Below, piece by piece: positions 3,036 through 29,669 of a stretch of DNA of 64,000 nt. Numbering within the stretch: position 1 is the stretch's first letter; every line of letters starts with the position of its first letter. The notes under the pieces are model-generated. The model saw only the letters and a program-made list of their open reading frames with translations. It searched no databases and was not told the DNA's origin. The DNA lies in NCBI GenBank assembly GCA_903832055.1, contig CAILAC010000010.1:124001-188000 (forward strand), in the 5' to 3' direction. This stretch comes from an uncultured Acidobacteriota bacterium (GTDB lineage Bacteria > Acidobacteriota > Terriglobia > Terriglobales > Acidobacteriaceae). A program made the position numbers and the translations under genes.

Positions 3036-3054
3036 GGTTCCCCTCCCCGGGGCT

Positions 3055-14186: not shown

Positions 14187-14220
14187 ACGCAAGGCAGCCA
14201 TCACTCTGGCTGCCTTGCGT
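14187..14220 (-). terminator. intrinsic terminator after flgE
   Basis: A perfect 14-bp inverted repeat (ACGCAAGGCAGCCA and its complement) encloses a six-base loop at 14201-14206. Reading in the minus direction it is followed by ACTTTTGC, a short T-run. It lies 137 bases after the flgE stop and separates the flgB-to-flgE unit from the fliN-like unit. Confidence 0.85.
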
Positions 14221-14321
14221 ATGCTGGGTGATTGTCGGTTCCCTTGGATGTCGGCGGCACCAGGGTAAAATGCCCGAAAACCCGGAACCCCTTTATTTCT
14301 GTGCCAACTGGTCCGGATTAG

Positions 14322-14360
14322 CCGACCGGATCAACCGACCGGGTCAACCGACCGGATCAA
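14322..14360. repeat. three tandem 13-bp repeats at the flgE stop codon
   Basis: CCGACCGGATCAA, CCGACCGGGTCAA and CCGACCGGATCAA follow without gaps. The flgE stop codon (14357-14359) falls inside the last copy. The copies differ at a single base. Repeat number changes here would not alter the protein much, because the array lies in the 3' untranslated part. Confidence 0.85.
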
Positions 14361-15583
14361 TGCACCATATTGATCGTTTCCTGGGCCACGGTGTCGAACG
14401 TCGTTACCGCCTTCGAGTTCGCCTCAAAAGCACGCTGCGCGATGATGAGGTTTGAGAACTCGGCCGAAATGTTGACGTTTGACTGTTCGAGAGCCGCATC
14501 CTGGAAGCCGCCAAGCCCTCCCGAGCCAGACGTTCCGATCGAAGCTGTCCCGCTTGCCTGGGTGGTGGCATAGGTCCCATTGCCCAGCGCGTGCAGCCCC
14601 TCCAGATTCACAACGCTCGCCAGTGCCAGTTTGCCCACGGCCAGTTGCTGACCGTTGGCAAAAGTTGCGTTCACCGTGCCGTCCGCCGTGATGCTGAAGC
14701 CCTGGTACTGGCCGCTCGGATAGCCATCCTGCGTCGTCGCCGAGACCGCCGAAGCCGCGCTCACCTGGGTCAGCGTCGGCTTTCCTGAGGCTCCCAGAAT
14801 ATTCCACGTGAAGCTCATGTTGGCCGCGCCATCCGTCATTCCAGTGAAGCCGATGCCGGCCACGTTGGCTGCCGGGGAGGTCAAATTGCCGCTGCTATCA
14901 AACGTCAACGTCCCCGTATTGTTGACCGCCGCGGTCGATTCGCCCGCAGGCAGAGCAATGGAATACGTCCATGAATTCGTCGCGGTCTTGGTGTACGTAA
15001 CCGTCGCCACATGGCTGGTCCCGAGTGAGTCATACAGCGTAATTTGACCCGGTACTGTTGTGCCGACGGCGGCAGCCGAATTCAAATTGGCGGTCATTCC
15101 AAATTTCGTCGAGGCATTGGGAGGCTCAACCTGTCCTACCGGAATCGTGATGTTGGTCAACGGCGAATTCGTGTTGACGATCCCGCCAACGGCCGGGTAA
15201 CCCATCACGTGCAGGCCCTCCTGGGTCGTGAGGTTGCCGTTGAAATCCAGGCCAAAGTTCCCGTCGCGGGTGTAGAGGTTGGTGCCGCCATTATTCAGCA
15301 CAAAAAATCCGTTGCCGTTGATCGCCACATCCGTCGAATTGCCCGTCGCCGCGAGGCTGCCCTGCGTGAACTGGTTCTCGATACCCGCAACGGAAACGCC
15401 CGAACCAAGTTGAATCAGATTCCCGGATCCGGATTGGGCAAGTTCCTGATAAAACGTGTCCGCAAACCGGACTTCCTGCGACTTGTAGCCGGTGGTATTG
15501 AGGTTGGCCAGATTGTTGGCGATCGTGTTCAGCGCCGTCGAATCGGACTCCAGACCCGTAAGTGGGATGTAAAAGCTTGCCAT
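14357..15583 (-). CDS. flgE: flagellar hook protein FlgE
   Basis: FlgE forms the hook. The start MASFYIPLTGLESDSTALNT at 15583 has a GGAGGAG ribosome site; the longer frame is rejected. The rod/hook motif IANNLANLNTTGYKSQEVRF is near residue 24. The body has INGNGFFVLNNG, YTRDGNFGLDFNG and the FlgE-specific ITLYDSLGTSHVATVTYTK. The C-terminus has LEQSNVNISAEFSNLIIAQRAFEANSK (shown in part) typical of axial proteins. At 408 residues it is close to the E. coli hook protein. It is the last gene of its unit, followed by tandem repeats and a terminator. Confidence 0.96.
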   Translation of the reverse strand: MASFYIPLTGLESDSTALNTIANNLANLNTTGYKSQEVRFADTFYQELAQSGSGNLIQLGSGVSVAGIENQFTQGSLAATGNSTDVAINGNGFFVLNNGGTNLYTRDGNFGLDFNGNLTTQEGLHVMGYPAVGGIVNTNSPLTNITIPVGQVEPPNASTKFGMTANLNSAAAVGTTVPGQITLYDSLGTSHVATVTYTKTATNSWTYSIALPAGESTAAVNNTGTLTFDSSGNLTSPAANVAGIGFTGMTDGAANMSFTWNILGASGKPTLTQVSAASAVSATTQDGYPSGQYQGFSITADGTVNATFANGQQLAVGKLALASVVNLEGLHALGNGTYATTQASGTASIGTSGSGGLGGFQDAALEQSNVNISAEFSNLIIAQRAFEANSKAVTTFDTVAQETINMVH

Positions 15584-15718
15584 CGGTGCTCCTCCAAAAA
15601 ATGATGTCGGTAGATGCCCCGGAATCTGACCTTGCTGCCGGAGACTGTTCTCGGTTGCCCGCCAGCGCAAGCGCTGCGGAAGAATTGAACCCCCTTGAGC
15701 CCCTTCCTCTGGCTCAGG

Positions 15719-16402
15719 CTAATGAAGCGGAATACCCCCGAAAGCCGGACCGCGATTGCTCTTTGGGGTATGACGATCGATCGCGTGCGCCACTGCGTGC
15801 GCCGCAGGCGTCTCCGGTGGCGCGCTCAGGTTTCCATGTGCCACCTCATGGACCACTTCATGGACCACCTGCCGCGGACTCGCATCCGCCTTCGCTGATG
15901 CGTTTGAGCCAGTCAGTGCAGAGGTTCCCTGCGGCGACTGTCCTTTCCCCGCCACCGGCCCAACGCCCGACGGTGCGGTCGCCATCCCGCCTCCCGCTCC
16001 CGAAGCCCCTGGAACCGCGCTGCCCGTCGGCGAAGTCACCGTTCCCAGGACCAGCGCCAGATTTTGATTCATGGCAATCAACTGCTCAAGACTGTTGATC
16101 TGCACCAGTTGATTCACGTATGCGTTCGGGTCGGTCTGAGCCGTCGGGTCCTGATTCTGCATCTCCGTGACCAGCAGCGTCAGAAAGTCATTCGAGGTAA
16201 TCGCTCCCCCGGAAGCTGCTGCAGCGCCCGAACCTTTGGTTGCGGCCGGTGTCGCCAACGGTGTCGCCGACTCAGTCTTACCCTGCGCGCTGGCTGATTG
16301 CATCCGCGCCGCCTTGGTCCCCCCAGGCGTTGGAGCCGCTCCATTGGTGGGAAATGGAGTCTCGCCGCTCGTCGCTGCCGTACTGTTCCATATGCTGCTC
16401 AT
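15719..16402 (-). CDS. flgD: hook-capping protein FlgD, short form with His-rich tail
   Basis: FlgD caps the growing hook. The chosen start MSSIWNSTAATSG at 16402 has AAAGGAG upstream and gives 227 residues. The N-terminal FlgD domain is clear near residues 65-110: ITSNDFLTLLVTEMQNQDP and YVNQLVQINSLEQLIAMNQNL. The usual C-terminal Ig/tudor-like FlgD domain is not visible. Instead a Gly/Ala/Pro-rich tail follows with a repeated EVVHEVVHEVAH and further His residues. It precedes flgE and follows fliK, the normal order. A minimal FlgD of this kind is functional in several phyla, but that is inference here. Confidence 0.87.
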   Translation of the reverse strand: MSSIWNSTAATSGETPFPTNGAAPTPGGTKAARMQSASAQGKTESATPLATPAATKGSGAAAASGGAITSNDFLTLLVTEMQNQDPTAQTDPNAYVNQLVQINSLEQLIAMNQNLALVLGTVTSPTGSAVPGASGAGGGMATAPSGVGPVAGKGQSPQGTSALTGSNASAKADASPRQVVHEVVHEVAHGNLSAPPETPAAHAVAHAIDRHTPKSNRGPAFGGIPLH

Positions 16403-16485
16403 CTGTCCTGCTCCTTTCTGCATCCCTTCAGATTTCTCCGCCCTGAGTTTCTCCGGCGAACTTTTTCGTCCTCTTGCCGTCACTT

Positions 16486-19400
16486 CTATGCCATCAGGGA
16501 AATCCGGTTTCCAGTCCATCCCTGGGCCGTTTCGCGGGGTTGGTCGGTCCCGGTTACACCGAACGAACCCGTCTGTGCGGGTCCTCCCCACATTGGAGCC
16601 GCCCCAGGTACCGGGCTCAACAGCGCGTTTCTTGGGTCGTCGGCCTGATCTCGACCTGACTGCCCGCTTCCCCCGCTATCAGATTTGGATTCGCGGTCAG
16701 CCCCCGTGCCCAAATCAAGCCTCATCTCCCCGGAGGATCGATGGGTCGTCACGGTCAGGCTCTCGACTGGCGTTTCACGGTCATGCATCCATCCCGCCAG
16801 CGAACTCAGATGTCCGGCCAACAATGCACCCGATGCAGGTGACTGCGCTTCAATCGCTGCGTGCACCCCGCCACCATTCGCGTGCACCCGCAGTTCGATG
16901 TAGCCCAGTGCCGGGTCCTGAAAGCCGACTTCGAGGCCCCGCGTACTTGTGCCGTGACCAGTCCCGTTCAACCCGATTCCATTCACCGCGGTGTTATTGG
17001 GCGACCCTCCATCCCTCAGGTCTGCTGGAATCGCATGCTCTGCCAAACTCATCGGTTTCACAGGATTTGCCATGTCCATAGCGCGAAATGGATCGCTTCC
17101 CCGCTCGCCATCCGATGCCAAAGCAACAGCGCTGCGCGTCATGGCAGGCAAGCCAGACTCCCCGAGATGAGCGCTGAATGGAATCGAAGCCAATCCAGAC
17201 CGAGGCACCCCCAATCCCGCATCCGATTCAGCCACTGTCTTCGAACCGTTTATCTCCGACCCAATTGAAGTCGTTTCTACCCCACGGCGGAAAGCAATTG
17301 ATCGCGTGACGCTCTTCGCCGCGCCGATAAGCGTTGTTTCTGCGCTCTGCTTCGTTCGTGTATTTTCAGCGCTCAGCGCTATCTCGCCAGCACTTTCCGG
17401 TCTCCCCCCTGGGACGGTATGAACCTGTAGCTCGTTTCCAGCGGTCTGCCCAGCAAGCGATTGGTGCCCGTCACTGGTCTGTCCAGCTCGATTCGTCTGC
17501 AGTGCGGGACTGTCAGTGACACCACCTGCAACCATGCCCGCACTCAGATCTGCTGCCAATGTCTTCGTCGAGCCGAAGGGCTCAGGGGACGGCTTTCCCA
17601 AAGATGCCACTGAGGGGTCGCTCGCGACGGAGCCGTCAATTGATGCGATGCGACCGGAATTCATCCACCGGTTGGCCGGCAACGCAGGCAACTTCGACAA
17701 AGCCTCGTTCGCATCGACTTTTGATTCGCCAGTCTGAATTGCTCTGGGCTGGATTCCTGGCTTGTTACCGGGCGTGAAATCTGGATTGGTGCCGGGCTTG
17801 GTAACGGGCTTGAAACCGGGCATGACATCAGACTCGAAACCAGACGTGACTCCAGGCTCGTCAAAACTCAGCTGCGGCTCATCGTGTGTTCGACTCGGAA
17901 CGCGTTCCGTGAGTTGCCCCGGCCCAACCTCTGGAAACAAGCGGCGCACCAGGGACGGTGCAACGTTCTCGCCGCGCTCGGCCACGCCTGTAGCTGCCCG
18001 TGAGCCACTCTGCACAGCTGTTGAACTGGAATCCACCTTCGATTGCGTCGCATCAGGCGGCGAACTGGTTAGAGTGGTTGACGATCCAAGCCGCGCCTCT
18101 TTCCCTGCAACCCGCAACTCCTGCGAGACGGTCTTCGCCGCCCCGGCAACCCCAGGCATCCCTTCGGGACCTCGGTCGCCAAACGGCTTGCCGTCCGACT
18201 GGCGATCATTCGCCCGCGTCGAATGCGGTGACATGGATTTATCCGGCAAGCTTCCGGCAGAGATAACCGGCGGTAGGACTTCATTTTCCTGGGGGTGGTC
18301 AATGCCCGTGACAGTTTCCTCCGGCATCTGCTTATGAAACAAGCCCAGGGACGCATCGCTGGTAAGATTTGGAATCTGTCTCCGCACCTCACTCTCTCCT
18401 CGCCAGAGGCGCGCTGCGACAGCATTCCCGTCTGCCCCAACGGCAGGGTCACGCGGCAAAGAAGCGCTTCCCTGCCCCATTGAGTTCTCCGCCACTCCTT
18501 CCGCCACTCCGGTCTGTTGATATTTAGTTGAAGAGGTCGGTATTGCGGCAATCTCTCCTCGTGCTCCCGGCGCTTTCGAGTTATCCGGCAACGGGTTGAC
18601 CTGCTTGCCCGCGAACATCAAAGCGTCCAGGCCTGAGCGTCCCGGGGTTGCAAATGGATTGATCGCCTTTGCCCCAGGCCCGCTGCCATCGTTTCCCTGG
18701 GCATCAACCCGGCGGGGGTCGCTGACCTGCAAATCGATCTTCTGCAAAGTCGAAGCGTGCCGGTCGCTCGCTCCTTGCGTAAAAGCTGCGCTCAGCCCGG
18801 TCCAGTCCCCGCCTGAAGTCGTGTTGGGCAACGAGATACCAATTCCATCAGTCGGCTTTGCAGCAACTGCGGCGCCGTTCGCCCGTGAAGATGCCGCGCT
18901 GCCAAACGGCCCATTCCTCGAGATAACTTCCGCAACTTCCTGAGCATCATCCTTTGCCTGCGCACGCAGAACACCGGAAGTCCTTGTCGTCTGAATGCTC
19001 TGCGCGGGGTCACTGTTTGTAGTCGATCTCTGCAAGATCGGTCCTTCCCCGGCCACATCGACCAGAGCCTGCAACGTTGCTCCATCCACCGGCGGAAGCC
19101 ATCCCGCTGCATGGGCAATGGGCGCATTCAATCCGAGCACCTGCCCTGCATCACCTGCATGCTCATCCTGCGGCTTGGCCTGACGGTGAACTCCCTGCGC
19201 CAGAGACCCGCTGCCTGATCGAAAAGCCTGATCAGCCTGATCAGACTGAACAGCCCGCGCCAAAGCCAGCTCAGGCAATCTTCTCGCAACCAGCTTGAGG
19301 TCGCGCGGTGCAAGCGGGAGTGCGGCCCGATCTGGTCTTGCCCCTGACCGCTCCCGTCCGGGACGAGCGATTGAATCGGCTGGCCCGGATTCAGCGGGCA

Positions 19401-19698
19401 GATCATCTTTCAAAGCGCTCAAATGCGATTGGCTCGCACCGTCCTGCGCTTCCTGCGCTTGCTGGCCTGCACCGTGCACAACCGGCGATGCGAGCAGATT
19501 CAGTGCGGAGCTCCACTGCGCCCGCAGTCTGGCAGCTGTCTCGACAGCCGAAACGTCCAATCCTTGCAGGACATGCCCCTGAAACGAACCGGAATCGCCA
19601 ACCGCAGTGCGTCCGCCAGAGGCAGCGCCACCCGTATTGCCGCGGACTCCTGGATTGAGACTTGAACCAACGGCATCGAAGTTGGGAATTTGCGCCAT
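16486..19698 (-). CDS. fliK: very large FliK-type hook-length control protein
   Basis: FliK measures hook length and triggers the FlhB switch. The C-terminal domain (roughly residues 915-1010) has the family pattern: GLEVGFQDPALGYIELRVH, GGGVHAAIEAQSPASGALLAG and LAGWMHDRETPVESLTV. The rest is long, polar and low in complexity, as expected for a ruler domain, but 1070 residues is far above the usual 400-600. A Gly-Pro-rich repeat block (MPGFKPVTKPGTNPDFTPGNKPG, shown in part) lies near residues 620-660. The start is not certain: ATG at 19698 (MAQIPNF) has no good ribosome site, and a TTG at 19719 is possible. Context is fliJ-fliK-flgD. Confidence 0.86.
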   Translation of the reverse strand: MAQIPNFDAVGSSLNPGVRGNTGGAASGGRTAVGDSGSFQGHVLQGLDVSAVETAARLRAQWSSALNLLASPVVHGAGQQAQEAQDGASQSHLSALKDDLPAESGPADSIARPGRERSGARPDRAALPLAPRDLKLVARRLPELALARAVQSDQADQAFRSGSGSLAQGVHRQAKPQDEHAGDAGQVLGLNAPIAHAAGWLPPVDGATLQALVDVAGEGPILQRSTTNSDPAQSIQTTRTSGVLRAQAKDDAQEVAEVISRNGPFGSAASSRANGAAVAAKPTDGIGISLPNTTSGGDWTGLSAAFTQGASDRHASTLQKIDLQVSDPRRVDAQGNDGSGPGAKAINPFATPGRSGLDALMFAGKQVNPLPDNSKAPGARGEIAAIPTSSTKYQQTGVAEGVAENSMGQGSASLPRDPAVGADGNAVAARLWRGESEVRRQIPNLTSDASLGLFHKQMPEETVTGIDHPQENEVLPPVISAGSLPDKSMSPHSTRANDRQSDGKPFGDRGPEGMPGVAGAAKTVSQELRVAGKEARLGSSTTLTSSPPDATQSKVDSSSTAVQSGSRAATGVAERGENVAPSLVRRLFPEVGPGQLTERVPSRTHDEPQLSFDEPGVTSGFESDVMPGFKPVTKPGTNPDFTPGNKPGIQPRAIQTGESKVDANEALSKLPALPANRWMNSGRIASIDGSVASDPSVASLGKPSPEPFGSTKTLAADLSAGMVAGGVTDSPALQTNRAGQTSDGHQSLAGQTAGNELQVHTVPGGRPESAGEIALSAENTRTKQSAETTLIGAAKSVTRSIAFRRGVETTSIGSEINGSKTVAESDAGLGVPRSGLASIPFSAHLGESGLPAMTRSAVALASDGERGSDPFRAMDMANPVKPMSLAEHAIPADLRDGGSPNNTAVNGIGLNGTGHGTSTRGLEVGFQDPALGYIELRVHANGGGVHAAIEAQSPASGALLAGHLSSLAGWMHDRETPVESLTVTTHRSSGEMRLDLGTGADRESKSDSGGSGQSGRDQADDPRNALLSPVPGAAPMWGGPAQTGSFGVTGTDQPRETAQGWTGNRISLMA

Positions 19699-19789
19699 GC
19701 CGATGACAGAGCAGCTCAATGACCAAAGTGTTCCCGAAAAGGGTTAGGCGAATTTCATTGAGAGTCTTTCACTCACCGGCAAATCCGCC

Positions 19790-20302
19790 TTACGAACCGT
19801 CTTCTGCTCCACCCTCTGGCGTCTTCAACGGACCAAGCCGCGCACTGACCATTGCTTCCCTGGCGGCAGTATCCCGTCGAGCGCGCCTGCCGTACCAGTC
19901 GTCCAGCATCTGCTGCGCTCTCTTTCCGGTTTCATGCGCCGCAGCTTGCTCGCTTTCACGAACCAATGTCTCCACCTGCCTCCGTCTTGTCCAGTTCATC
20001 ATGAACATCGCCCGCTTCTGCTCCGCCTCTTCGGCGGCTGCTGCCAGGCGCGGTTTGAGCGCTGTCTGGCGCAGCCGCGCCTGCTCAGTTTCCATCAACC
20101 CACCGGCGCGGGTGGCTCCATGATCGATGGCAATCCCTTCGACAAAATGAGCTTGTCCCCGAGCCAGTTCCTGCCCTGCCAACGCTACTTGTTGTTGTGC
20201 TCGACTCTGCTCCCGCATTGCTGCCTCCAGTTCAAGGCGGCTTTGCTCTTCCTCGATCGCACGCAGGCGCAACAACCGTTGGAGTATCTTCTTCGGAGCC
20301 AT
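19790..20302 (-). CDS. fliJ: flagellar export chaperone/stalk protein FliJ
   Basis: FliJ links the FliI ATPase ring to FlhA. The 170-residue protein is almost all coiled coil (LQRLLRLRAIEEEQSRLELEAAMREQSRAQQQ, in part), with Glu, Gln, Arg and Ala in heptads and a C-terminal QQMLDDWYGRRARRDTAARE that matches the family. The ATG at 20302 has GAGAGA upstream. It follows fliI directly, the standard position. Confidence 0.88.
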   Translation of the reverse strand: MAPKKILQRLLRLRAIEEEQSRLELEAAMREQSRAQQQVALAGQELARGQAHFVEGIAIDHGATRAGGLMETEQARLRQTALKPRLAAAAEEAEQKRAMFMMNWTRRRQVETLVRESEQAAAHETGKRAQQMLDDWYGRRARRDTAAREAMVSARLGPLKTPEGGAEDGS

Positions 20303-20396
20303 TCCCTGTCTCTCTCCCAATCAATTGCGCCCTGCGCGCTTCCTGCTTTCGTTCGACAGTTCTGGAATCCAGCCCCCCATCCGGTCTGCAAAGTCT

Positions 20397-21740
20397 CTAG
20401 ATTTCCCGCTCCAGATCCAGCAGCCGGTCCACGCTTTCAGAGAAATTCACCGTTTCCTCCGCCCGTTGCGCCAGAAACTCGCGCAGCACAGGTCGCGCAC
20501 GCAACGCCCTGTCCAGATCTTCATCAGCACCCGGCTTGTACGCGCCAATGCGCACCAGGTCCTCGCTGCGCGCATACGCGGCCAGCAGACGCCGCACCGT
20601 CCCCGCAGCCTCACGATGTTCCGCGCCGGCCACCGACGGCATCAACCGGCTCACCGAATCCAGCACTTCCACCGGCGGATACCAGCCCTCGGCAGCCATC
20701 GAGCGGGAGAGCACAATATGTCCATCGAGCAGTGAACGTACCGCATCCACCAGTGGATCCTGCTGATCGTCTCCCTCCATCAGCACCGTATAGAAAGCCG
20801 TAATCGATCCGGTCTTGTAGTTCCCCGCCCGCTCCACCAGTTTGGCAAGCCGGGCGAATACCGAAGGGGTATAGCCCTTGGCCGTCGTCGGCTCACCAGC
20901 CGCAAGACCAATTTCGCGCGCGGCCATGGCAAAGCGCGTCAGAGAATCAAGTACCAGCAGTACGTGCTTGCCCTCAGCCGCAAAATACTCCGCCACCGTG
21001 GTTGCGGCCAGTGCCGCCCGCATGCGCATCAGGGGCGACTGATCCGAAGTCGAAACCAGCACCACAGATCGCTTTCGGCCTTCCTCGCCAAGCGCATCCT
21101 CCAGAAACTCCCCCACCTCCCGGCCCCGCTCCCCTACCAATCCGACCACCGTCACATCTGCGCCCGTGTTGCGGGTCATCATGCCAATCAACGTGCTCTT
21201 GCCCACACCTGAACCGCCAAAAATGCCGACACGCTGCCCCCGACCCACCGTGAGCAACGAGTCGATGACCCGGATTCCCGTTCCCAGAGGAGTTCGAATC
21301 GGCACCCGCCCCAGCGGCAAGCGAACCGAACCATCGAGCGCCAGAGCAGACGTCGTAACCAGCCTGCGCCCCCCCTCGGCATCGTCGATTGGTTCCCCCA
21401 ATGCATTCAAAACACGCCCCATCAATGCCGGGCCCACTTCAATCTCCGGCCTGAATCCCAGCGCTTCAACCGTATCGCCGTAACGAATGCCCTCCGGCGC
21501 ATTCAACGGCATCGAAAGCACCGTTGAACCCCGAAAGCCAATCACCTCTGCCAGATGCGCATGGCCTTCGCGGTCAATGATGGCGCAGCACTCCCCCACC
21601 GAAGAGTTGGGACCCGTCGACTCGATCATCGGTCCGACCGCCTGCAATACCTGCCCGCGCCAGCGCCACGGCTGCGCACGCTGTAACTGACGCACATAGG
21701 CATCCAGCCTTCCCGGCAGAACCGGGGCAGCCGAGTTCAT
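20397..21740 (-). CDS. fliI: flagellum-specific ATPase FliI
   Basis: FliI powers unfolding and release of export substrates in the cytoplasm. It is F1-beta-like: Walker A GGSGVGKS at residues 175-182, then DVTVVGLVGERGREVGEFLE and the Walker B-like HVLLVLDSLTRFAMAAREIGLAAGEPTT. The family motif PSVFARLAKLVERAG follows. The 447-residue length is typical. The ATG overlaps the end of fliH by four bases. Confidence 0.97.
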   Translation of the reverse strand: MNSAAPVLPGRLDAYVRQLQRAQPWRWRGQVLQAVGPMIESTGPNSSVGECCAIIDREGHAHLAEVIGFRGSTVLSMPLNAPEGIRYGDTVEALGFRPEIEVGPALMGRVLNALGEPIDDAEGGRRLVTTSALALDGSVRLPLGRVPIRTPLGTGIRVIDSLLTVGRGQRVGIFGGSGVGKSTLIGMMTRNTGADVTVVGLVGERGREVGEFLEDALGEEGRKRSVVLVSTSDQSPLMRMRAALAATTVAEYFAAEGKHVLLVLDSLTRFAMAAREIGLAAGEPTTAKGYTPSVFARLAKLVERAGNYKTGSITAFYTVLMEGDDQQDPLVDAVRSLLDGHIVLSRSMAAEGWYPPVEVLDSVSRLMPSVAGAEHREAAGTVRRLLAAYARSEDLVRIGAYKPGADEDLDRALRARPVLREFLAQRAEETVNFSESVDRLLDLEREI

Positions 21741-22642
21741 TGGCCGCTCCCGGCCGCCGCCGATTTTCCGCCAGATTCCGCGCTCCCATGTTCAGATTCT
21801 GCAGACTCCTGACCCCGCTCGCCCACCCGGTCAAAGAACCCCCGTTCAATCTCCTTCAACTGCGACCACAGGCTCAGATCCGCAGTTCCCAGGGCGGTCT
21901 CCATGCGGCACTCGCCAGACTTCATTTGCGGCTCGCCCACGACCTCCGGTCGCATTGCCCGTTCTGGAATCAAAGCCAGAGCCTGCTCCCACATCCTCTG
22001 CTCCTGCAATGGAACCCGCAATCGTACCGCCGTTGAATCTGAAAGCTGCCCCAACGCCACCCGCACCGCACCCGTCAGCAGCAAGGGGTCCATCTGCGCT
22101 TCACGGCGTAGAACTCTCGCTGCGATTGCCAGCGCCAAACGCACAGCTTCCTGCTCCAACTGGTGAAAATAATGCAGTTTTGATTCTGAAAAACTCGCCA
22201 GCAGCTCCCCCACCTGGACGTGGGCCTTCCGCAGAGCTGCCTCGATCTGCTGGGAACTCTCTTCTCTGCCCCGCGCCAGCCCCAGTTCAACCCCCTGCAC
22301 AATTCCTCTTTCTTCGGCATTGCGCCACTCTGCAGCCAGACGCTCAATTTGGTCCTTGTCTTCACTGCCGCCCTGCATGTCGAAAGTCGACCCGCCTGCA
22401 GACGCGCGCGCTTCCCAACCCCCAGCCTCGCCGGCAGAAACCGGCTCCCCCGAAGTCTTCAGTCCGCGAACACTGCTGCCTGTGGGGAAGATTTCAGCGA
22501 ATCGACGACTCATCTCCGCTTCGCTCGCGCCCTGGCCCCCCAGCCAGCCTTCGGTTGCGGTATGCGGGACTTCCGGAAAGATAAACACTTCGATCTCCCT
22601 CAACCCTTCGCTGCACTTCGGAAGGCCGCTATCGGTGCTCAT
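21737..22642 (-). CDS. fliH: FliH-type flagellar assembly protein
   Basis: FliH regulates the FliI ATPase. The first 100 residues are variable and probably disordered. Residues about 120-290 have the FliH/V-ATPase E-type pattern: AEWRNAEERGIVQGVELGLARGREESSQQ, then a long helix and AVRLALAIAARVLRREAQMDP, VRVALGQLSDSTAVRLRVP and AELSLWSQLKEIERGFFD-like ending. The frame is closed by a stop 12 codons before the ATG at 22642, so the start is fixed. It lies between fliG and fliI. Confidence 0.88.
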   Translation of the reverse strand: MSTDSGLPKCSEGLREIEVFIFPEVPHTATEGWLGGQGASEAEMSRRFAEIFPTGSSVRGLKTSGEPVSAGEAGGWEARASAGGSTFDMQGGSEDKDQIERLAAEWRNAEERGIVQGVELGLARGREESSQQIEAALRKAHVQVGELLASFSESKLHYFHQLEQEAVRLALAIAARVLRREAQMDPLLLTGAVRVALGQLSDSTAVRLRVPLQEQRMWEQALALIPERAMRPEVVGEPQMKSGECRMETALGTADLSLWSQLKEIERGFFDRVGERGQESAESEHGSAESGGKSAAAGSGQ

Positions 22643-22700
22643 GGCTGTCGTTGCCTCATCGCTGTTTCCTGCACGCCTTTACGAATTGCCGCTTGTTGTA

Positions 22701-22745
22701 TTGATACTGGTTGCGTTGATGCTGGTTGCGTTGATACTGGTTGCG
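22701..22745. repeat. three tandem 15-bp repeats between fliG and fliH
   Basis: TTGATACTGGTTGCG, TTGATGCTGGTTGCG and TTGATACTGGTTGCG follow without gaps, one base different. They sit in the 194-base gap between the fliG stop and the fliH start. A frame across them on the minus strand would read Asn-Ala-Thr-Ser-Ile repeats, but it has no start codon. The rest of the gap holds no gene I can support. Confidence 0.85.
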
Positions 22746-22836
22746 TTGCCGTCTTCAAAGTCCGGAATCGCTCTCTGGCGCCCATGGCGGCATCGCTTCT
22801 GACCTCACATAATTAAAAGACTTGATCAACGGAAGC

Positions 22837-23886
22837 TCAGGCCATCATTTCGTCCCCCGTTTCCATCTTCAGAATTACCTTGCCCTCCGACTCCAGGCGG
22901 CGCGCAAGGTTCAGAATCTCCTGCTGGGCCGCCGCAACTTCTCGCGAACGCACCGGACCCATCACCTCCATATCCTCTTTGAGCATCTCGACCGCGCGGG
23001 AACTCATCGCCTTGAAGACCTGCGCCCGCAATTCCTCATTGGCACCGCGCAGCGCCAACGCCAGTTGCCGCTTGTCGACACCCGAAACAATCTCGCGAAT
23101 TGACTGCGCCGGCACCGTCACCAGGTCCTCAAAGGTAAACATGAGATTGCGAATATTCAGCGCCAGCTCCGGTTGCGCGTCCTCAATCGATTCGAGAATC
23201 CGTTTGGCTTCCTCCGCATTCACCCGGTTCAGCAGATCCGCCACCGCCTTGAAGCCGGAGTAGCTCTTGCGCTTGGTGTCGCCCACATTCTCCAGTCGCC
23301 GGTGCAGAATCAGCGCCACCTTCTGCGCCATCTCCGGAGAAAACTGCCGCATCTCCGCCAGCCGCTGAATCGAGACCACCTTGTGTTCTTCACTCAGGTT
23401 GTCCAGTACCTGCGAGGCCCGGCGCGGGTCAAGATGAGCCAGCACCAGCGCAATCGTCTGCGGGTGTTCGGAGTCCAGCAGCTTGCCCAGCTGTTGCGGA
23501 TCAGTCTTCTGAAGTTTGCCCAGATTCCCCTGACTGGCCTCCTGCGATCGCCGCACCAGCATCAGCAGATCATCTGCGCGCTGTTTGCCAAAGGTGTCGT
23601 TGAGCAGCCGCGAAGCAAAGTCCAGCCCGCCGTGCATCATCACATGCTGAGTTTCAAGCAGCTCCCAGAACTCTTCCAATATCTCGCTTGAAACCTCAGG
23701 CGGAACCGCTCGCAGTTCAGCCAGTTCCTCCGTGATGCGCTGCACATCAGACTCTGGCAGCGCGCGCAGAATCTCCTTGGCAATCTCTTCACCAACGGCA
23801 ACCAGCAGAATGGCCGCCTTCCGCACTCCGTTCATATTGGCCGTAAGCCGTCTGACCTGCGTTCCGTCTTGTCCCATCTCGGCCAA
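22837..23886 (-). CDS. fliG: flagellar motor switch protein FliG
   Basis: FliG is the torque-bearing switch subunit. It has the N-terminal domain (GVRKAAILLVAVGEEIAKEI), the middle armadillo segment with EHPQTIALVLAHLDPRRASQVL (in part) and the C-terminal charged torque helix (VDKRQLALALRGANEELRAQVFKAMSSRA, in part). The C-terminal motor domain is complete. A TTG at 23886 with GAGGGGAG six bases upstream is the best start; an ATG three codons on is possible. The length of 349 residues is normal. fliF lies upstream. Confidence 0.96.
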   Translation of the reverse strand: MAEMGQDGTQVRRLTANMNGVRKAAILLVAVGEEIAKEILRALPESDVQRITEELAELRAVPPEVSSEILEEFWELLETQHVMMHGGLDFASRLLNDTFGKQRADDLLMLVRRSQEASQGNLGKLQKTDPQQLGKLLDSEHPQTIALVLAHLDPRRASQVLDNLSEEHKVVSIQRLAEMRQFSPEMAQKVALILHRRLENVGDTKRKSYSGFKAVADLLNRVNAEEAKRILESIEDAQPELALNIRNLMFTFEDLVTVPAQSIREIVSGVDKRQLALALRGANEELRAQVFKAMSSRAVEMLKEDMEVMGPVRSREVAAAQQEILNLARRLESEGKVILKMETGDEMMA

Positions 23887-23917
23887 CCGTTGCTCCCCTC
23901 TCTACCCAGGTGACGTG

Positions 23918-25561
23918 CTAGTCAGAATGAATCCAGCTCTGCAGCAGGCGCGAACTCTGCGCCGGATCGCGCTTCAACGTGTCTGTCACCTGATCAAAGA
24001 CCTGCTGAGCCCGCTGTCTCTCCAAATCCGGTGCCGCATGTTCAAGTTCCGGCAACATCGGTGGCGTCGCTGCAGACGCAGCCAGTTCGCCCGGCCTGCC
24101 CTTGAACGCAGCAGGAGAAGAATTGCTCATTCTCCCCAGCGCCGGGCGGATCGCCAGCACAATCAGCAACACCAGACCCACCAGCAGCGTTCCGTACTTG
24201 AGCAGCAGCGGCGAATGCTCGATCATCGCCAGCACCCGGTCAAGAGGGGAAACCGTCATCGGGTTGTGATTCTGGTCAAAGCTCAGATCTTCGACGGTCA
24301 CCAGGTCGCCACGCGTTCCGTCGAAACCCACCGCCGCCTGCGCCAGTGCCGTCAACGTTCGCAACTCCTCAGCACTGCGCGGCTGCCAGGTCGCCTGCTT
24401 GCCCTTCTGGCCCGCAGCCGCCATCCGGTCATTGACGATGATGGCTGCCGTCAGCCGGCGAATGTGCCCCGGAGCTTCCGTCGTATGGCGCACCTTGCGC
24501 GAAGCACCGTATGTGCCACTCTCGGTCTTGGCGCTCTGAGGAGGGGTACTCTGTTGCGGATACACCGGCAGAGCCTGGGCATTGGGCGCATTGGTCGCCG
24601 TACCCGGCACCCCGGCCGGTACTGGCTGCGCACTGGTCGCCTGTTCGGTCCTTTGCATTGACAACGTCACCACCTGGTCAGGGTCAAAGGTCTCTTCCGT
24701 GGTATCAGTCGCCGTCGGATCATAGTCAACCGTCACTGAAGCGCGCACGTTGCCCACCCCAGTCACCGGCTCAAGTGTCTCAATCAACTTGGCCTCAAGC
24801 GCCTGTTCCGTGCTCAGCCGCAAGGCTTCGCCGCTCTTGGGGCCAAGAGGCATGTGACCACTCGCATCGACCAGCGAAACCTGCGCCGGTGCCAGCCCGT
24901 CCACCGCCGAGGCCACCAGGTTGCGAATCGCTTCGTCTTCGCCGTCCGCCAGTCCGCGATGCCGCAGCGTCAGTACAACCGAAGCCTTGGCCGGCCGCTC
25001 CTGTTCGCGAAAAAGTGATTCATGCGGCATCACCAGATGCACCCGGGCCGACTGCACATCTGCCAGAGTGGCAACTGTGTGCTCCAGCTCGCCTTCAAGC
25101 GCCCGCTGATAATTCACCTGCTCGTCAAACTCCGAGCCCACCCAGTTCGGCTTGTCAAACAGCTCAAAGCCCATCCGACCGCTATGCGGACCGCCCTTGG
25201 CAGCCGTCGCCAGCCGCGCCTTATCCAGCTGACCCGCTGGAACCCGGATCGCGGTGCCATTGCCCTCAAGATCAAACGTGATTTGCGCCTGGGTCAGTAC
25301 CTGAGCCATCTGCCGCGAATCCTCCGGGTCCAGTCCGGCATAGAGCGTCCGCCAGTCCGGACGAGTCGCATACCACCCCAGGCCACCGATCGCGGCCGCC
25401 AACAGGGCGCCGGTTGTAATCGCCCAGATGCGCTGACGAGGCTGGAGCATTTGCCAGCGGCCCCGCGTCTGTTGCCACGTATTCCAGGCAGTACCAGCAC
25501 TACCCGGCCGTTCCCCGGCGGGATTCGTGGTCGTCTTATCCAACTGTGCTCCCGCTGCCAT
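23918..25561 (-). CDS. fliF: flagellar MS-ring protein FliF
   Basis: FliF forms the MS ring in the inner membrane. A first membrane helix lies near residues 48-64 (IWAITTGALLAAAIGGLGW), followed by the YscJ/FliF ring domain (LYAGLDPEDSRQMAQVLTQ, DEQVNYQRALEGELEHTVATL, VQSARVHLVMPHESLF). A second membrane helix is near residue 455 (LLLKYGTLLVGLVLLIVLAI), then the FliG-binding tail ending LLQSWIHSD. The length of 547 residues is typical. It is followed by fliG. Confidence 0.97.
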   Translation of the reverse strand: MAAGAQLDKTTTNPAGERPGSAGTAWNTWQQTRGRWQMLQPRQRIWAITTGALLAAAIGGLGWYATRPDWRTLYAGLDPEDSRQMAQVLTQAQITFDLEGNGTAIRVPAGQLDKARLATAAKGGPHSGRMGFELFDKPNWVGSEFDEQVNYQRALEGELEHTVATLADVQSARVHLVMPHESLFREQERPAKASVVLTLRHRGLADGEDEAIRNLVASAVDGLAPAQVSLVDASGHMPLGPKSGEALRLSTEQALEAKLIETLEPVTGVGNVRASVTVDYDPTATDTTEETFDPDQVVTLSMQRTEQATSAQPVPAGVPGTATNAPNAQALPVYPQQSTPPQSAKTESGTYGASRKVRHTTEAPGHIRRLTAAIIVNDRMAAAGQKGKQATWQPRSAEELRTLTALAQAAVGFDGTRGDLVTVEDLSFDQNHNPMTVSPLDRVLAMIEHSPLLLKYGTLLVGLVLLIVLAIRPALGRMSNSSPAAFKGRPGELAASAATPPMLPELEHAAPDLERQRAQQVFDQVTDTLKRDPAQSSRLLQSWIHSD

Positions 25562-25588
25562 GGCTCCCCGAAATCTCGTGCCTCTTGG

Positions 25589-25984
25589 TTAAAACTGCAT
25601 CCCCATCACTTGCTGGTACGCAGCCAGAGCCTTGTTCCGCACCGACAGCACCAGCTCGAAACCCATCTCAGCCTTTTCAGTCGTAATCATGGCCTCATGC
25701 ACATCCACGCCCTTGCCCGACATCAGTCCTTCCACCGCTGTGCGCGCCTGCCGCTCCAGCAGGTCCGCCTGACCAACTGCTTCGGTCAGCAGATCGGCAA
25801 ATGGAGCGGACGCCGAAACCGTCCCCACCCCACCTCCAGAGATGTCCAACGGCGAAAATCCCGCAACAGCCATCGAACTCGCCGTTGAAGTCGCAGCACC
25901 AGGAACTGCGTTGATGCTGGAGGCCTGCATTGCCTCAAGCGGCGCTCCAAACAGCGAAACTGCAGCCGCAGTGATTGGTACCAT
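25589..25984 (-). CDS. fliE: flagellar hook-basal body protein FliE
   Basis: FliE joins the MS ring to the rod. The ATG at 25984 has GGAGGAA upstream. The family region is the last 75 residues: FADLLTEAVGQADLLERQARTAVEGLM, VDVHEAMITTEKAEMGFELVLSVRNKALAAYQQVMGMQF (in part). The first 50 residues are variable. At 131 residues it is slightly longer than the 105-residue standard. It lies between flgC and fliF. Confidence 0.95.
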   Translation of the reverse strand: MVPITAAAVSLFGAPLEAMQASSINAVPGAATSTASSMAVAGFSPLDISGGGVGTVSASAPFADLLTEAVGQADLLERQARTAVEGLMSGKGVDVHEAMITTEKAEMGFELVLSVRNKALAAYQQVMGMQF

Positions 25985-26036
25985 CAAAATTCCTCCTCAA
26001 ATGCACCCTTGGTTGAGTCGTGGCCCGAAGCTGCCC

Positions 26037-26531
26037 CTATTTGGCGATTTCCAGAGCCGAAGCGATCATCGACTTTTCCGCCTGCACCGCTGAACCGTTC
26101 AGACCGTAGGCGCGCGTTGCTCCCATCAGGTCCACCATCTCGGTCAGCGGATTGATATCCGGATAGGAGACAAATCCCTCGGCATCGGCATCCGGATGGC
26201 TGGGGTCGTACCGCTTCAATGCAGGAGCCGTATCCTCAACCACTCCTGCAATGCGCACCCCCGGAGCTGCGCTTTCCCCGTTCAACAGTGATCCGGGTAC
26301 CGCACCGGCCAGCTGACCCGGGATCTGACCCGGAATCAGGCCCGACAAATGCCCGGCAAAGGCCTGATCCCCGCCACCCGTGGCGAAGATCACATGCTGA
26401 CGCCGATAGGGCGTGCCATTGGGAGTCCGAGTGGTCTCCGCATTGGCCATATTTGCAGCCACCACCTCGGCCCTCATCCGCTCCGCCTGCATGGCGGCTC
26501 CTGACTGGTCAATCATGCCAAAAAGATTCAT
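26037..26531 (-). CDS. flgC: flagellar proximal rod protein FlgC
   Basis: FlgC is a proximal rod subunit. The start MNLFGMIDQSGAAMQAERMR at 26531 has a GGAGGAG ribosome site. The rod motif VVAANMANAETTRTPNGTPYRRQ is near residue 24, and the C-terminus has VSYPDINPLTEMVDLMGATRAY, typical of FlgC. A Gly-Pro-rich insert (GLIPGQIPGQLAGAVPGS) lies at about residue 63-80 and lengthens the protein to 164 residues. It lies 39 bases after flgB is read. Confidence 0.94.
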   Translation of the reverse strand: MNLFGMIDQSGAAMQAERMRAEVVAANMANAETTRTPNGTPYRRQHVIFATGGGDQAFAGHLSGLIPGQIPGQLAGAVPGSLLNGESAAPGVRIAGVVEDTAPALKRYDPSHPDADAEGFVSYPDINPLTEMVDLMGATRAYGLNGSAVQAEKSMIASALEIAK

Positions 26532-26603
26532 TCCTGCTCCTCCCGTCGACTCCGTACCACGCACACGCCTTGAGGCTGTTTTGCGTCCAGTCCCTATCGA
26601 GCC

Positions 26604-26984
26604 TTACTTGGCGTCGGCATGGATCGCATCAAAGATGCGCGTGTATTCCCGCCGCAGCAAGGCAACGCCAGTTTTGAACTTCAACTGAGCTTCTGCCAGA
26701 TTCAGACCTTCCCGGTCCATCGAAACGTTGTTGCCATCGGGTCGCACAATGAGCCCATCCTCCTGGAAAACTCTTGGATTCAGACCGGGCCCACCGGGCT
26801 CCGGACTGAGGCCACCATCGGCCGTCGCCATCGCCTGCTGCATCTCCGCTTCAAAGTCCATGCCCAGGGCGCGATACCCGGGCGTGTCAATGTTGGCCAT
26901 GTTGGCCGCTGTCAATTGAATCTGGCGCGTGTCCAGATCAAGGTAGTGAGCAATTTCACTGCTGAGCCTTGTCGCAATTTCCAC
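26604..26984 (-). CDS. flgB: flagellar proximal rod protein FlgB
   Basis: FlgB is a proximal rod subunit. The best start is a GTG at 26984, directly behind AGGAGGT, giving 126 residues that begin with EIATRLSSEIAHYLDLDTRQ; the frame upstream has no better site. The rod motif TAANMANIDTPGYRALGMDFE lies near residue 28 and the C-terminus has LKFKTGVALLRREYTRIFDAI. It heads the flgB-to-flgE unit and has a sigma-54-type promoter about 40 bases upstream. Confidence 0.93.
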   Translation of the reverse strand: MEIATRLSSEIAHYLDLDTRQIQLTAANMANIDTPGYRALGMDFEAEMQQAMATADGGLSPEPGGPGLNPRVFQEDGLIVRPDGNNVSMDREGLNLAEAQLKFKTGVALLRREYTRIFDAIHADAK

Positions 26985-27025
26985 ACAACCTCCTGCGCGC
27001 TCGACATTCGATTCAGGGCGCCTGC

Positions 27026-27040
27026 GCAATCCCGCGCCCA
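27026..27040 (-). promoter_or_regulatory. candidate sigma-54 promoter for the flgB operon
   Basis: The minus strand reads TGGGCGCGGGATTGC with GG and GC ten bases apart. The -12 element ATTGC fits well. The predicted start is near 27014, which leaves a 30-base leader with the AGGAGGT site before the GTG of flgB. An inverted repeat (AGCCGGA at 27044-27050 and TCCGGCT at 27074-27080) lies just upstream. Confidence 0.6.
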
Positions 27041-27093
27041 CTCAGCCGGAACCAACCTTTGAGCTGTTAAAACTCCGGCTGCATGCAACCGTT

Positions 27094-28518
27094 TCAGTTC
27101 ATTAACGAGAGTCCAAAGTCAATTTCCGCGGCGGTAATTACCGGTTCGTTCCCCGCCAGAATCGCCGCCCTTTCAAGCACGTGTTCCAGTTCCCTGACAT
27201 TGCCCGGCCACCCATGCTGACCCAGTCTGGCCATCGCCGAGGCATCCACGCGTTTGACCGGCGACTTGCGCCCCATCTGTTCCATGAAATGGTTCACAAG
27301 CTGGGGCAGGTCTTCCAGGTGTTCAATCAGCCCGGGCGTGTGAATCAGGAAAACCGCCAGGCGGTAATACAAGTCGGCGCGAAAGATCCCCTTTTGGGCA
27401 TCAATCGCAAGCGGCTGGTGGGTCGCCGCCACAATGCGCACATCCACTTTCACGGTTTCGTTGTCGCCAATCCGCTGCAGTTCGCCATTTTCAAAGAATC
27501 GGAGCAACTTCGATTGCAGTGCCAGCGGCATCTCTCCGATCTCATCGAGAAAGAGCGTTCCGCCGTCGGCAGACTCAATTCGTCCGGTCCGGCCCTGCAC
27601 CGCTCCGGTAAATGCTCCCCGGGTATGGCCAAACAGTTCAGCCTCCAGCAGCGCTTCGGGAATCGCGGCGCAATTGATTGCTACAAACGGCTTGCGTGAG
27701 CGATTGGAGAGCCGGTGAAGCGCCTCGGCCACCAGTTCCTTGCCTGTACCAGTCGGCCCCTCGATCAGCACAGGAGTGGTTCTCTCCGCCACCAGCCGAA
27801 TGCGACGGCTCACCTCCAGCATCACTGCACTCGTCCCGATCAGCGTCGGAATACGCTCTGATGCGGGAATCTCCTTGCGCGCCAGGGGGGCCGAAACCCT
27901 CCCGGCTGCAGTCGCTCCCGCGGTCAGGATCGAGTTTGCCGGAGGATAATTGCCAGATTGAAATTGAGATTCATTGCCCTCTGCCGCAACTTGCTCGGCA
28001 GGGCGCGGCAACCGCGAAGTCAGGGGAGGCTCCGGCAGGTGGGCGAGCTGACTGAGCCGTGTCGGTCCACCCCCTTCATCCATATCTGCCGCCGACTGCC
28101 ACGCAGCACTGTCTCCCTCCTGGCTTCGCCGCAGCGCATACAGCAACTCCTGGTGGTAGGGACTGCGCGGGCTATTCTCAGCCGAAACCCCATCGGTCAG
28201 CATCACATCCACATGCGGATAGTCACGGTGAAAATCACGCAGAAACTCATTCACGTCCAGATCTGGAAGCCAGGGATCGATCAGCAGTGCTTCAAGCTGG
28301 GTAGACTGCGATGCCACCCAGGCATCGGCTCCTCCCTGCGCCTCAAGCACCTGCCAGCGCAGCCCCGTCAAGGAATGGCGCAGCCTTTCGCGCAGACTTG
28401 AGTCGGAGCTGACCACCAGCACACTCCGCACGCGTGACCGGAATGGCAGACTCTGCGCAGCCGAAATCGGCATGACCGCAGAAGCGGAATTGGGCACTGC
28501 AATTGAAACTGGCAACAT
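27094..28518 (-). CDS. sigma-54 activator (FlgR/FleQ-like) without DNA-binding domain
   Basis: AAA+ transcription activator for sigma-54 polymerase. The ATG at 28518 has GGAGACG upstream and gives 474 residues. Residues about 30-110 form a degenerate receiver: the usual acidic pair is Ser-Ser (VLVVSSDSS) and the phospho-acceptor position keeps D81 (LLIDPWLP), with no clear switch lysine. The AAA+ domain is intact: Walker A GPTGTGKE at 254-261, GAFTGA at 301-306, Walker B LFLDEIG at 322-328. The protein stops right after the AAA+ lid (WPGNVRELEHVLERAA); no Fis-type helix-turn-helix follows, and none is found in another frame downstream. FlgR of Helicobacter also lacks this domain. It precedes the flgB operon and probably drives the three -24/-12 sites in the locus. 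Confidence 0.86.
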   Translation of the reverse strand: MLPVSIAVPNSASAVMPISAAQSLPFRSRVRSVLVVSSDSSLRERLRHSLTGLRWQVLEAQGGADAWVASQSTQLEALLIDPWLPDLDVNEFLRDFHRDYPHVDVMLTDGVSAENSPRSPYHQELLYALRRSQEGDSAAWQSAADMDEGGGPTRLSQLAHLPEPPLTSRLPRPAEQVAAEGNESQFQSGNYPPANSILTAGATAAGRVSAPLARKEIPASERIPTLIGTSAVMLEVSRRIRLVAERTTPVLIEGPTGTGKELVAEALHRLSNRSRKPFVAINCAAIPEALLEAELFGHTRGAFTGAVQGRTGRIESADGGTLFLDEIGEMPLALQSKLLRFFENGELQRIGDNETVKVDVRIVAATHQPLAIDAQKGIFRADLYYRLAVFLIHTPGLIEHLEDLPQLVNHFMEQMGRKSPVKRVDASAMARLGQHGWPGNVRELEHVLERAAILAGNEPVITAAEIDFGLSLMN

Positions 28519-28600
28519 GGCTTCGTCTCCTGGCAATACGACTTTGTCTTTCAAATCTGTGGCCCGCAGCAATGGCGGATGCAAGGTACCTGAGCGCAGT

Positions 28601-29365
28601 TCAGATCGATTCAAGCGTCCCATTAACTGTCCGGTCCCGTACGCTGCCCGAGATCACCTGACCCAAGACCTGCGGTGGCAATGGCAGATGGAGTTCCGCC
28701 TCGGAGGGCACCAGGTAGCCATGCCCTCGCACCGTGCGCAGCAGAAATCCCGGTGGCGGATCTTTCAGCTTGCGCCGCAGATAGTTCACGTACACATCGA
28801 CGATGTTGGTTGTCTGGGCCGGCTCCATATTCCAGACTGCGTCCAGCAGTTCCACCCGCGAAATGCATTGGCCGCGATGCAGCATCAGATGTTCGATCAG
28901 CGCAAATTCCTTGTTGGTCAGCGGAATCAGTTCGCCCGCGCGCCGGGCCGTATGGTCCAGCCGGTCGAGTTCCAGATCCCCTACCCGCAGCGTCAGCTTG
29001 GCTTCCCGTTTGCGGCGCAGCAGGGCGCGGCTACGGGCACGCAGCTCATGCAGGCTAAAGGGCTTCACCATCAGGTCGTCCGCTCCCAGATCCAGGCACC
29101 GGATGCGGGTCTCCACCTCCTGCCTGCCGGTCAGCACCAGCACCGGCAACTGCAGGTCGAGCAGACGCATCGCAGCCAGTGCCTGTTCACCATCCATCAC
29201 TGGAAGGTTGAGGTCGAGAATCGTCAGATCCGGCATATCCTCGCGAAAGGCCTCCACGGCCTCTGCGCCATTCGACGCACAGCGCACCCGGTGTCCGTCC
29301 GATTCCATGCCGCGCGTCAAAAACATCGCAAGCGCCCGATCATCTTCGGCAATCAAAAGCCTCAT
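28601..29365 (-). CDS. OmpR/PhoB-type response regulator
   Basis: A 254-residue two-domain regulator. The ATG at 29365 (MRLLIAEDDR) has GGAGAGG upstream and is the natural receiver start; the long upstream frame is rejected. The receiver has D8-D9, phospho-acceptor D51 (ILDLNLPVMDG) and lysine in LMVKPFS. The C-terminal winged helix has LTNKEFALIEHLMLHRGQ and RTVRGHGYLV. No histidine kinase gene is adjacent, so the signal is unknown. It stands just upstream of the flagellar sigma-54 activator in the same direction and may control flagellar entry or an unrelated regulon. Confidence 0.92.
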   Translation of the reverse strand: MRLLIAEDDRALAMFLTRGMESDGHRVRCASNGAEAVEAFREDMPDLTILDLNLPVMDGEQALAAMRLLDLQLPVLVLTGRQEVETRIRCLDLGADDLMVKPFSLHELRARSRALLRRKREAKLTLRVGDLELDRLDHTARRAGELIPLTNKEFALIEHLMLHRGQCISRVELLDAVWNMEPAQTTNIVDVYVNYLRRKLKDPPPGFLLRTVRGHGYLVPSEAELHLPLPPQVLGQVISGSVRDRTVNGTLESI

Positions 29366-29669
29366 CACACCTCTCCCCGTTCTGTCGCGTCCTGTGGCAG
29401 ATTGCAGATTCTGCGACTGGTTCCGTCTCCACCACCATCCCCCGAATGGTTCAGGGACCTCAAGAGAAATCCATGAAGGAAGGATGTGGCGGTTCCGAGA
29501 TTGGGAGAAGCTCACAAGGATTCCCAAAAAAGTGTCCCAACTCGCTCCTCTTCTAAGTACCTCCCCATTGGAATCCGCCCACATATTCCATCCGGCCTGC
29601 GGTACCACTAGAGAACATTCAGCGAAAATAACAGTGGCTAATTCGCTTTTCGTTCGCTAGAATGCCCGC
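29366..29669. other. divergent intergenic region between response regulator and lexA
   Basis: This 304-base gap holds the lexA promoter at its right end. The left part should hold the promoter for the response regulator, but I see no convincing -35/-10 pair there. No gene is supported in it; frames across it lack starts with ribosome sites. Confidence 0.6.
29658..29663 (+). promoter_or_regulatory. -10 element of a possibly leaderless lexA transcript
   Basis: TAGAAT ends six bases before the lexA ATG, and no ribosome site precedes the ATG. A transcript starting at the usual distance from this hexamer would begin at or next to the ATG. TTCGCT at 29642-29647 is repeated directly at 29653-29658 and may be an operator half-site pair, possibly for LexA itself. 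Confidence 0.5.

Follow-up and report, generated by a model that had tools for sequence, protein, structure and literature searches.

A predicted sigma-54 promoter class for flagellar operons

In the window, i.e., the whole 64,000-nucleotide stretch analyzed here (an uncultured Acidobacteriaceae bacterium, assembly GCA_903832055.1, contig CAILAC010000010.1, positions 124,001 to 188,000), flgB is directly preceded by a predicted sigma-54 -24/-12 element of the form TGG-N8-TTGC (27026-27040; all features described below are on the minus strand). Comparison with related genomes suggests that this element belongs to a common class of flagellar promoters that combine a -24/-12 element with an upstream box, found beside the gene of a sigma-54 activator that is devoid of a helix-turn-helix (HTH) domain. 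The best overall explanation, to which we assign a probability of about 0.6, appears to be a sigma-54-dependent flagellar regulon served by this activator, with the box perhaps read by a regulator of the OmpR type. Judging from sequence comparison, sigma-54 dependence is very probable for the promoter class and, to a slightly lower degree, for the flgB site itself. An earlier note on this DNA had pointed to a sigma-54 promoter before flgB; the lack of a DNA-binding domain in the activator, the upstream box and two sister promoters in the same window go beyond it.

The element before flgB and its conservation

On the minus strand, positions 27040-27026 read TGGGCGCGGGATTGC, with GG and GC 10 bases apart as described in the earlier note; the spacer between TGG and TTGC, which it gave as nine bases, has eight (GCGCGGGA). 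With the C of TTGC placed at -12, the predicted start falls at 27014, leaving the 30-base leader that had been noted, with a Shine-Dalgarno sequence (AGGAGG, 26989-26994, beginning at 26994) and the GTG start codon at 26984-26982. The gene itself (26604-26984) matches TIGR01396 FlgB above the cut-off. An in-frame GTG is also present at 27041 and would place the element within the open reading frame (ORF), but in relatives the FlgB alignments start at the 26984 position. No sigma-70-like promoter was found between 26900 and 27300. Inverted repeats surround the site; given that the RNA fold of the intergenic region has a z-score of 0.03, they are no evidence of a structured leader.

Taken alone, this motif is little beyond chance expectation. 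Exact TGG-N8-TTGC occurs 24 times in the window (15.8 ± 3.8 expected, with 24 reached in 2 of 100 shuffles), TGGCAC-N5-TTGC with up to three mismatches occurs 662 times versus 655 expected, and a -24/-12 weight matrix derived from relatives ranks the flgB site 12th, 22nd, 36th or 229th among 127,970 positions, depending on the training set. Neither a consensus scan nor the -24/-12 matrix alone is distinctive, and both were set aside as evidence on their own.

The site is credible because its place directly before flgB is kept in relatives, not because of the string. The gap between the activator gene and flgB, a pairing that is conserved among relatives, was examined in 23 and later in 80 loci, and the records with this locus bear Acidobacteriaceae names (e.g., Acidipila, Silvibacterium, Paracidobacterium and Edaphobacter). 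In 12 of 14 same-genus loci, the orthologous position is occupied by TGG-N8-TTGC (shuffle mean 0.16, maximum 2); TGG-N9-TGC precedes flgB in 14 of 15 loci from four other genera (g40, g42, g43 and g44; shuffle maximum 3) and in 39 of all 80 loci (shuffle mean 3.4, maximum 9). Compared with the nearest genome (G002), TGGG and GATTGCG are preserved and the spacer drifts, within a gap that is 55 percent identical overall; the 16-base site ranks 6th among the 94 windows of this comparison, not first.

The upstream box

Alignment of 42 promoters at TGG yields a conserved box that lies roughly 17-35 bp ahead of the -24 element, with the consensus TTCTNAGANNTTTCTAAT. Nine of the 51 non-redundant rows were left out of this alignment and of the stop-codon, repeat and weight-matrix analyses, as they were judged to lack a genuine gap or site between activator and flgB; among the nine, L083_G147 does have a short gap, in which there is a weak candidate. 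Of the 14 columns from -32 to -19, 11 lie above the 99.9 percent point of the maximum-column null. The stop codon of the activator gene, which could be placed in all but one of the 42 rows, lies elsewhere in 27 promoters, and in these 6 columns still exceed the 99 percent point. The stop codon was accordingly rejected as the whole cause of the box: these 27 promoters keep part of it, and the fliN and flgF promoters described below carry it as well.

An 11-bp direct repeat within the box reaches 3.86 of 8 matches against a background of 2.04 ± 0.20 (maximum 2.52). It is also the top-scoring arrangement in the fliN and flgF/fliK promoter sets, the second of which was picked by R1, a model that itself includes the repeat (R1 was built from 39 flgB and fliN promoters of relatives, with the own genome excluded). 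An inverted repeat rises above background in the flgB (0.48) and fliN (0.47) sets as well, lower than the direct repeat; as a description of the box it was rejected, being the weaker of the two in all three sets, including flgF/fliK (0.55 for the direct versus 0.39 for the inverted repeat). Conserved C positions are found in the box in all three sets. An 11-bp spacing of direct repeats is characteristic of sites for OmpR/PhoB-type regulators, although no supporting paper was found, and the box would seem to be in the style of such sites.

The box copy at flgB (AGTTTTAACAGCTCAAAGG, 27056-27074), located as the fixed-position block of the relatives, is too diverged to be judged alone. Nevertheless, a composite matrix of box and -24/-12 element ranks the flgB place 1st of 127,898 positions when trained on genus mates, 2nd when the own sequence is left out, 2nd again when G002 is left out too, and 14th when trained on other genera only.

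In g40, g42 and g44 (L064, L066, L068, L070, L074 and others), a stem resembling a terminator extends over the second half of the box, with a T-run that is continuous with the TTTGG of the -24 element; the promoter of flgB may thus contain the end of the activator operon.

Sister promoters before fliN and flgF

Two further promoters of the predicted class are present in the window. The one before fliN (14084-14133, box plus TGGGCATTGTTTTGC) takes rank 1 of 127,898 positions (14098) with a matrix derived from the flgB promoters of other genera only, at 19.7 bits versus 13.8 for the next position, and is matched by R1 with a genome-wide E-value of 1.1e-5. It lies behind the terminator-like hairpin that follows flgE and directly before a fliN-type gene (13676-14059, FliMN_C, ATG at 14059). 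The other (2332-2377, box plus TGGTCCCCATTTTGC; R1 E-value 0.00228 genome-wide, from a model that contains no flgF promoters) precedes a flgF-like rod gene (1535-2272, in an ORF spanning 1535-2347) identified by Pfam hook/rod domains. In the 4.57-Mb genome as a whole, these are the two sites listed by R1 at E ≤ 1, with 150 of 467 first-look candidates scored. The scans generally scored 150, or 117 with stricter filters, of the roughly 190-990 such candidates per genome; as only part of the candidates was scored, absence of an R1 match is no proof of absence.

The same arrangement recurs in relatives. Of 30 fliN loci, obtained from 32 genomes searched, 19 have a site by the flgB matrix at a level reached by at most 1 of 200 shuffles, one more has a site at p = 0.04, and 10 have none at p < 0.05. 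In these fliN promoters (L210-L229), there is a further conserved stretch, TGTCCC, about -15 to -6 before TGG, which is strong here and weak at flgB. In ten genomes, 30 R1 matches were listed, assigned by position and gene start, and 26 of these precede flgB, fliN, flgF or the gene at the fliK place (fliK being recognized by place and length). Training sites account for 14 of the 26; among the 16 non-training matches, 12 precede fliN, flgF or the gene at the fliK place. The other four listed matches comprise one before a FliB-like gene and three elsewhere. The FliB-like gene (L255, G008:C5:291772) lies outside the main cluster, is Cys-rich and resembles a flagellin lysine methylase, its identity being assigned by eye from the Cys motif. 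An R1 site precedes flgF in 10 of the 11 genomes looked at, which were chosen after the R1 matches had been seen, and stands 27-30 bases ahead of it in 8 of the 10.

Fifty genomes of a second set were scanned at E ≤ 0.1. Among the 20 genomes without flgB, three were matched, once each, with E-values of 0.02-0.03, where about two were expected. Of 17 genomes that had flgB with neither another regulatory gene order before it nor membership in g40, g42 or g44, 16 were matched; nine of the 17 had contributed training sequences, and the eight that had not were all matched. R1 had replaced the pattern TTAGA-N20-30-TGG-N9-TGCA, which proved too loose: in 11 of 12 genomes its reversed control matched as often or more. 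It had found matches in 9 of the 12, and of the 13 listed, 7 were flgB promoters and 6 were elsewhere (4 of them in the own genome).

The activator, its neighborhood and the flgB operon

The gene preceding flgB (27094-28623) encodes a sigma-54 activator, as the earlier note held (Pfam Sigma54_activat, residues 261-427, E = 8.8e-68). The lid match extends to residue 501 and the protein ends at 509, i.e., 8 residues past it, and neither a Fis-type nor any other HTH family was detected by Pfam at E ≤ 0.001. In relatives, where the activator was found in 79 of 80 loci, the protein also stops no more than about 50 residues past the lid (tails judged by eye). The GAFTGA loop is present in all 37 aligned rows, one of which is without the N-terminus, and the AAA+ domain resembles those of solved FleQ and of 'flagellar regulatory protein' A and C. 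The receiver is degenerate: in the 37 rows the acidic pair is lost (SSD, SAD and similar), the Asp is kept, and the Response_reg match of the activator is under the cut-off.

In 76 of 79 loci, the activator gene is directly preceded by one for an OmpR/PhoB-type response regulator, the remaining three loci being truncated; in the window this regulator is encoded at 28601-29365 (ORF 28601-29608). It consists of a receiver (Response_reg) and a Trans_reg_C winged helix, with PDB matches to PrrA, PhoP and KdpE. From the regulator gene to flgB the window has no gene for a kinase, nor is there an HTH-bearing NtrC-type gene between the activator and flgB. In G111, G186, G177, G292, G040, G199 and G183, the HTH-less activator is followed by a kinase-like ORF (kinases were recognized by motif), an HTH-bearing NtrC-type regulator and flgB, in this order. 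Another arrangement is seen in G027 (L205, about 302-4050, reverse complement): an OmpR-type regulator, the HTH-less activator, a kinase-like ORF, a 208-aa ORF and flgB. The 208-aa ORF has a receiver match and a Fis-type HTH and is too short for an AAA+ domain, so that here the ATPase and the DNA-binding function seem to be encoded separately.

Downstream of flgB follow flgC, fliE, fliF, fliG, fliH, fliI, fliJ, fliK, flgD and flgE (14357-26564; assigned by Pfam and NCBIfam, with the fliH, fliJ and fliK matches under curated cut-offs), and after flgE an intrinsic terminator-like hairpin with a 15-bp stem and a T-rich tail (14186-14221). The genome encodes RpoN (Sigma54_DBD, E = 5.1e-55). Together, rpoN, the adjacent GAFTGA activator and the strong terminator after flgE make a single flgB-to-flgE operon plausible. 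The observation in the earlier note on the site is thus partly confirmed, and its interpretation, a sigma-54-dependent flgB-to-flgE operon, finds support in these features and in the comparison of relatives. A protein with an MshE-type cyclic di-GMP-binding domain is also encoded among the flagellar genes (3610-4632).

Proposed mechanism and alternative explanations

With the site and its conservation, the shared box with its 11-bp repeat, the domain losses of the activator and the gene linkage as observations, we propose that sigma-54 RNA polymerase transcribes flgB to flgE from the -24/-12 element at 27040-27026. The flgB promoter would be a diverged member of an Acidobacteriaceae flagellar class, composed of box and -24/-12 element and apparently used at flgB, fliN, flgF and, in some genomes, the gene at the fliK place. 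The adjacent HTH-less GAFTGA activator probably opens these promoters, and its identification as the ATPase involved is likely. Because this activator has no domain that could place it on DNA, a separate protein probably marks the promoter, and the best candidate is the adjoining OmpR/PhoB-type regulator. Binding of the box by this regulator, suggested by gene linkage, has in our view slightly less than an even chance. Still more tentative is the full scheme of a split system, in which the ATPase and a phosphorylatable DNA-binding regulator, encoded in adjacent genes, would jointly fire the flgB, fliN and flgF operons.

Several observations weigh against this reading. The textbook consensus of the -24 block has CACG after TGG, which is absent from the flgB site (TGGGCGC), although the relatives' promoters are also variable at these positions. 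TGG-N9-TGC is found in the gap in only 24 of 79 genome-contig loci, and none of the 21 loci of g9-type genomes has such a site before flgB; in the four g9-type genomes tested, the site at fliN is kept in all. When the 12 same-genus promoters are taken alone, a single box column passes the null, and the stop codon of the activator gene lies inside the first half-site in 14 of the 41 promoters where it could be placed. The flgB site itself is outside the R1 list at E ≤ 1 genome-wide. None of the five g40, g42 and g44 genomes in the second set was matched by R1 (the terminator-like stem lies between box and -24 element), and neither was any of the eight genomes with other regulatory genes before flgB, several of which have the OmpR-type regulator upstream. 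This regulator is present without an R1 site in G111, G186, G199, G183 and G177 and was not found nearby in G292, G040 and G037; since several genomes lacking R1 sites carry it, regulator and box do not strictly co-occur. Finally, the genome yields 14 matches to the activator, itself included, and another activator could act at flgB.

One alternative accepts the sigma-54 promoters as real but has the activator act from solution, in the way described for FlgR, without a DNA-bound partner, the box being an UP-like contact for the alpha C-terminal domain of the polymerase. Alpha contacts fall about where the box lies, 43-62 bases before the predicted start, and the T/A-rich composition and fixed spacing of the box, as well as the absence of an HTH from the activator, agree with this; H. 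pylori FlgR likewise has no DNA-binding domain, according to an excerpt of PMC3162934. Nevertheless, the conserved C positions and the strict 11-bp repeat in three promoter sets are more specific than an A-tract, and 26 of the 30 listed matches to the composite model (14 of the 26 being training sites) precede just four flagellar genes, which makes this explanation rather unlikely. In Rhodobacter, FleQ and FleT form mixed rings, and the box might similarly be bound by another, DNA-binding sigma-54 activator that forms mixed rings with the HTH-less one. The 14 activator matches in the genome would supply candidates, relatives have an HTH-bearing NtrC-type regulator and a kinase between the HTH-less activator and flgB, and in the flgB and fliN sets an inverted repeat, too, scores higher than background. 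FleT, in addition, is without signal and DNA-binding domains (PMC3162934, in part). We consider this explanation improbable, given that Fis-type HTH sites usually are inverted repeats and the direct repeat fits better in all three sets, most clearly in flgF/fliK, and that the window has neither a kinase gene nor an HTH-bearing one between activator and flgB.

Equally improbable, in our estimate, is that the flgB site is a relic, with flgB read from the upstream regulator-activator operon and sigma-54 acting here only at fliN and flgF. Such a loss is suggested by the weakness of the flgB site and box, by the g9-type genomes, in which flgB lacks a preceding site and its distance from the activator is mostly short, and by the failure to find a terminator-like site between activator and flgB in the window; against it stand the preservation of TGGG and GATTGCG relative to G002 despite an overall gap identity of 55 percent, where the site is 6th of 94 windows, and the composite matrix, by which the flgB site is 1st, 2nd or 14th depending on the training set. 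That there is no promoter at 27040-27026 at all and the match is due to chance would suit the 24 strings of this form counted in the window, where about 16 are expected, but is hardly credible: 12 of 14 loci keep the element at the orthologous position, and shuffles reach 2 at most.

The sigma-54 regulon with box and HTH-less activator, which we prefer, provides a concrete set of operons (flgB, fliN and flgF) with predicted starts and a defined box, and a natural case of how a sigma-54 activator without a DNA-binding domain locates its promoters. Should the OmpR-type regulator serve as the tether, then the two halves of an enhancer-binding protein, for DNA binding and for ATPase activity, need not reside in one gene. 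The evolutionary path can be read with the help of those relatives that carry a kinase/NtrC pair in this position.

Comparison with known systems

Flagellar gene control in Acidobacteriota appears little studied: among the papers listed in open-literature searches, none dealt with it, and the string "Acidobacteri-" is absent from the available main text of two sigma-54 surveys (PMC3162934, PMC12316311). The first of these, in the portion cited, describes H. pylori FlgR and R. sphaeroides FleT as sigma-54 activators without a DNA-binding domain, and an excerpt of PMC3037356 describes the action of C. jejuni FlgR as independent of DNA binding. The present activator is similar to epsilonproteobacterial FlgR, as presented in these excerpts, in being free of a DNA-binding domain and linked to flagellar rod and hook genes, but differs from the FlgR system in its degenerate receiver, the absence of an adjacent FlgS-like kinase and the additional promoter box. 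Expression of the sigma-54 rod and hook genes of C. jejuni depends on the MS ring, the rotor and the export apparatus (PMC7064773, in excerpt). Here, by contrast, the flgB operon itself contains fliF, fliG and fliI, and the C. jejuni checkpoint order is therefore not directly transferable.

A two-protein arrangement at a sigma-54 promoter is also known from Borrelia, where Rrp2 shows no demonstrable specific binding and BosR binds direct repeats near the -24/-12 element of rpoS (PMC3037356, in the part cited). Rrp2 and BosR act at rpoS, with no flagellar role implied, unlike the proteins considered here, and a later paper (PMC11109971) presents BosR as a protein that binds RNA. With the FlrA/FlrBC system of Vibrio and FleQ/FleSR of Pseudomonas, the locus shares the AAA+ domain resembling FleQ and, in relatives, the order of HTH-less activator, kinase, NtrC-type regulator and flgB. 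FleQ and FlrC bind DNA; in contrast to these cascades, the window locus is without the kinase and the HTH-bearing regulator, and its activator lacks the HTH.

R. sphaeroides FleT needs a DNA-binding partner. It is similar to the present protein as a flagellar sigma-54 activator without a DNA-binding domain (PMC3162934, in the portion cited). Unlike in the case of FleT and FleQ, the candidate partner here is a regulator of the OmpR type, not a second sigma-54 activator. The box, with two direct half-sites 11 bp apart, is organized like those of the OmpR/PhoB family, of which the CtrA box, TTAA-N7-TTAA, is an example; it differs from CtrA-type boxes in its half-sites, TTCTNAG/TTCTAAT, and in being coupled to a predicted sigma-54 promoter at fixed spacing.
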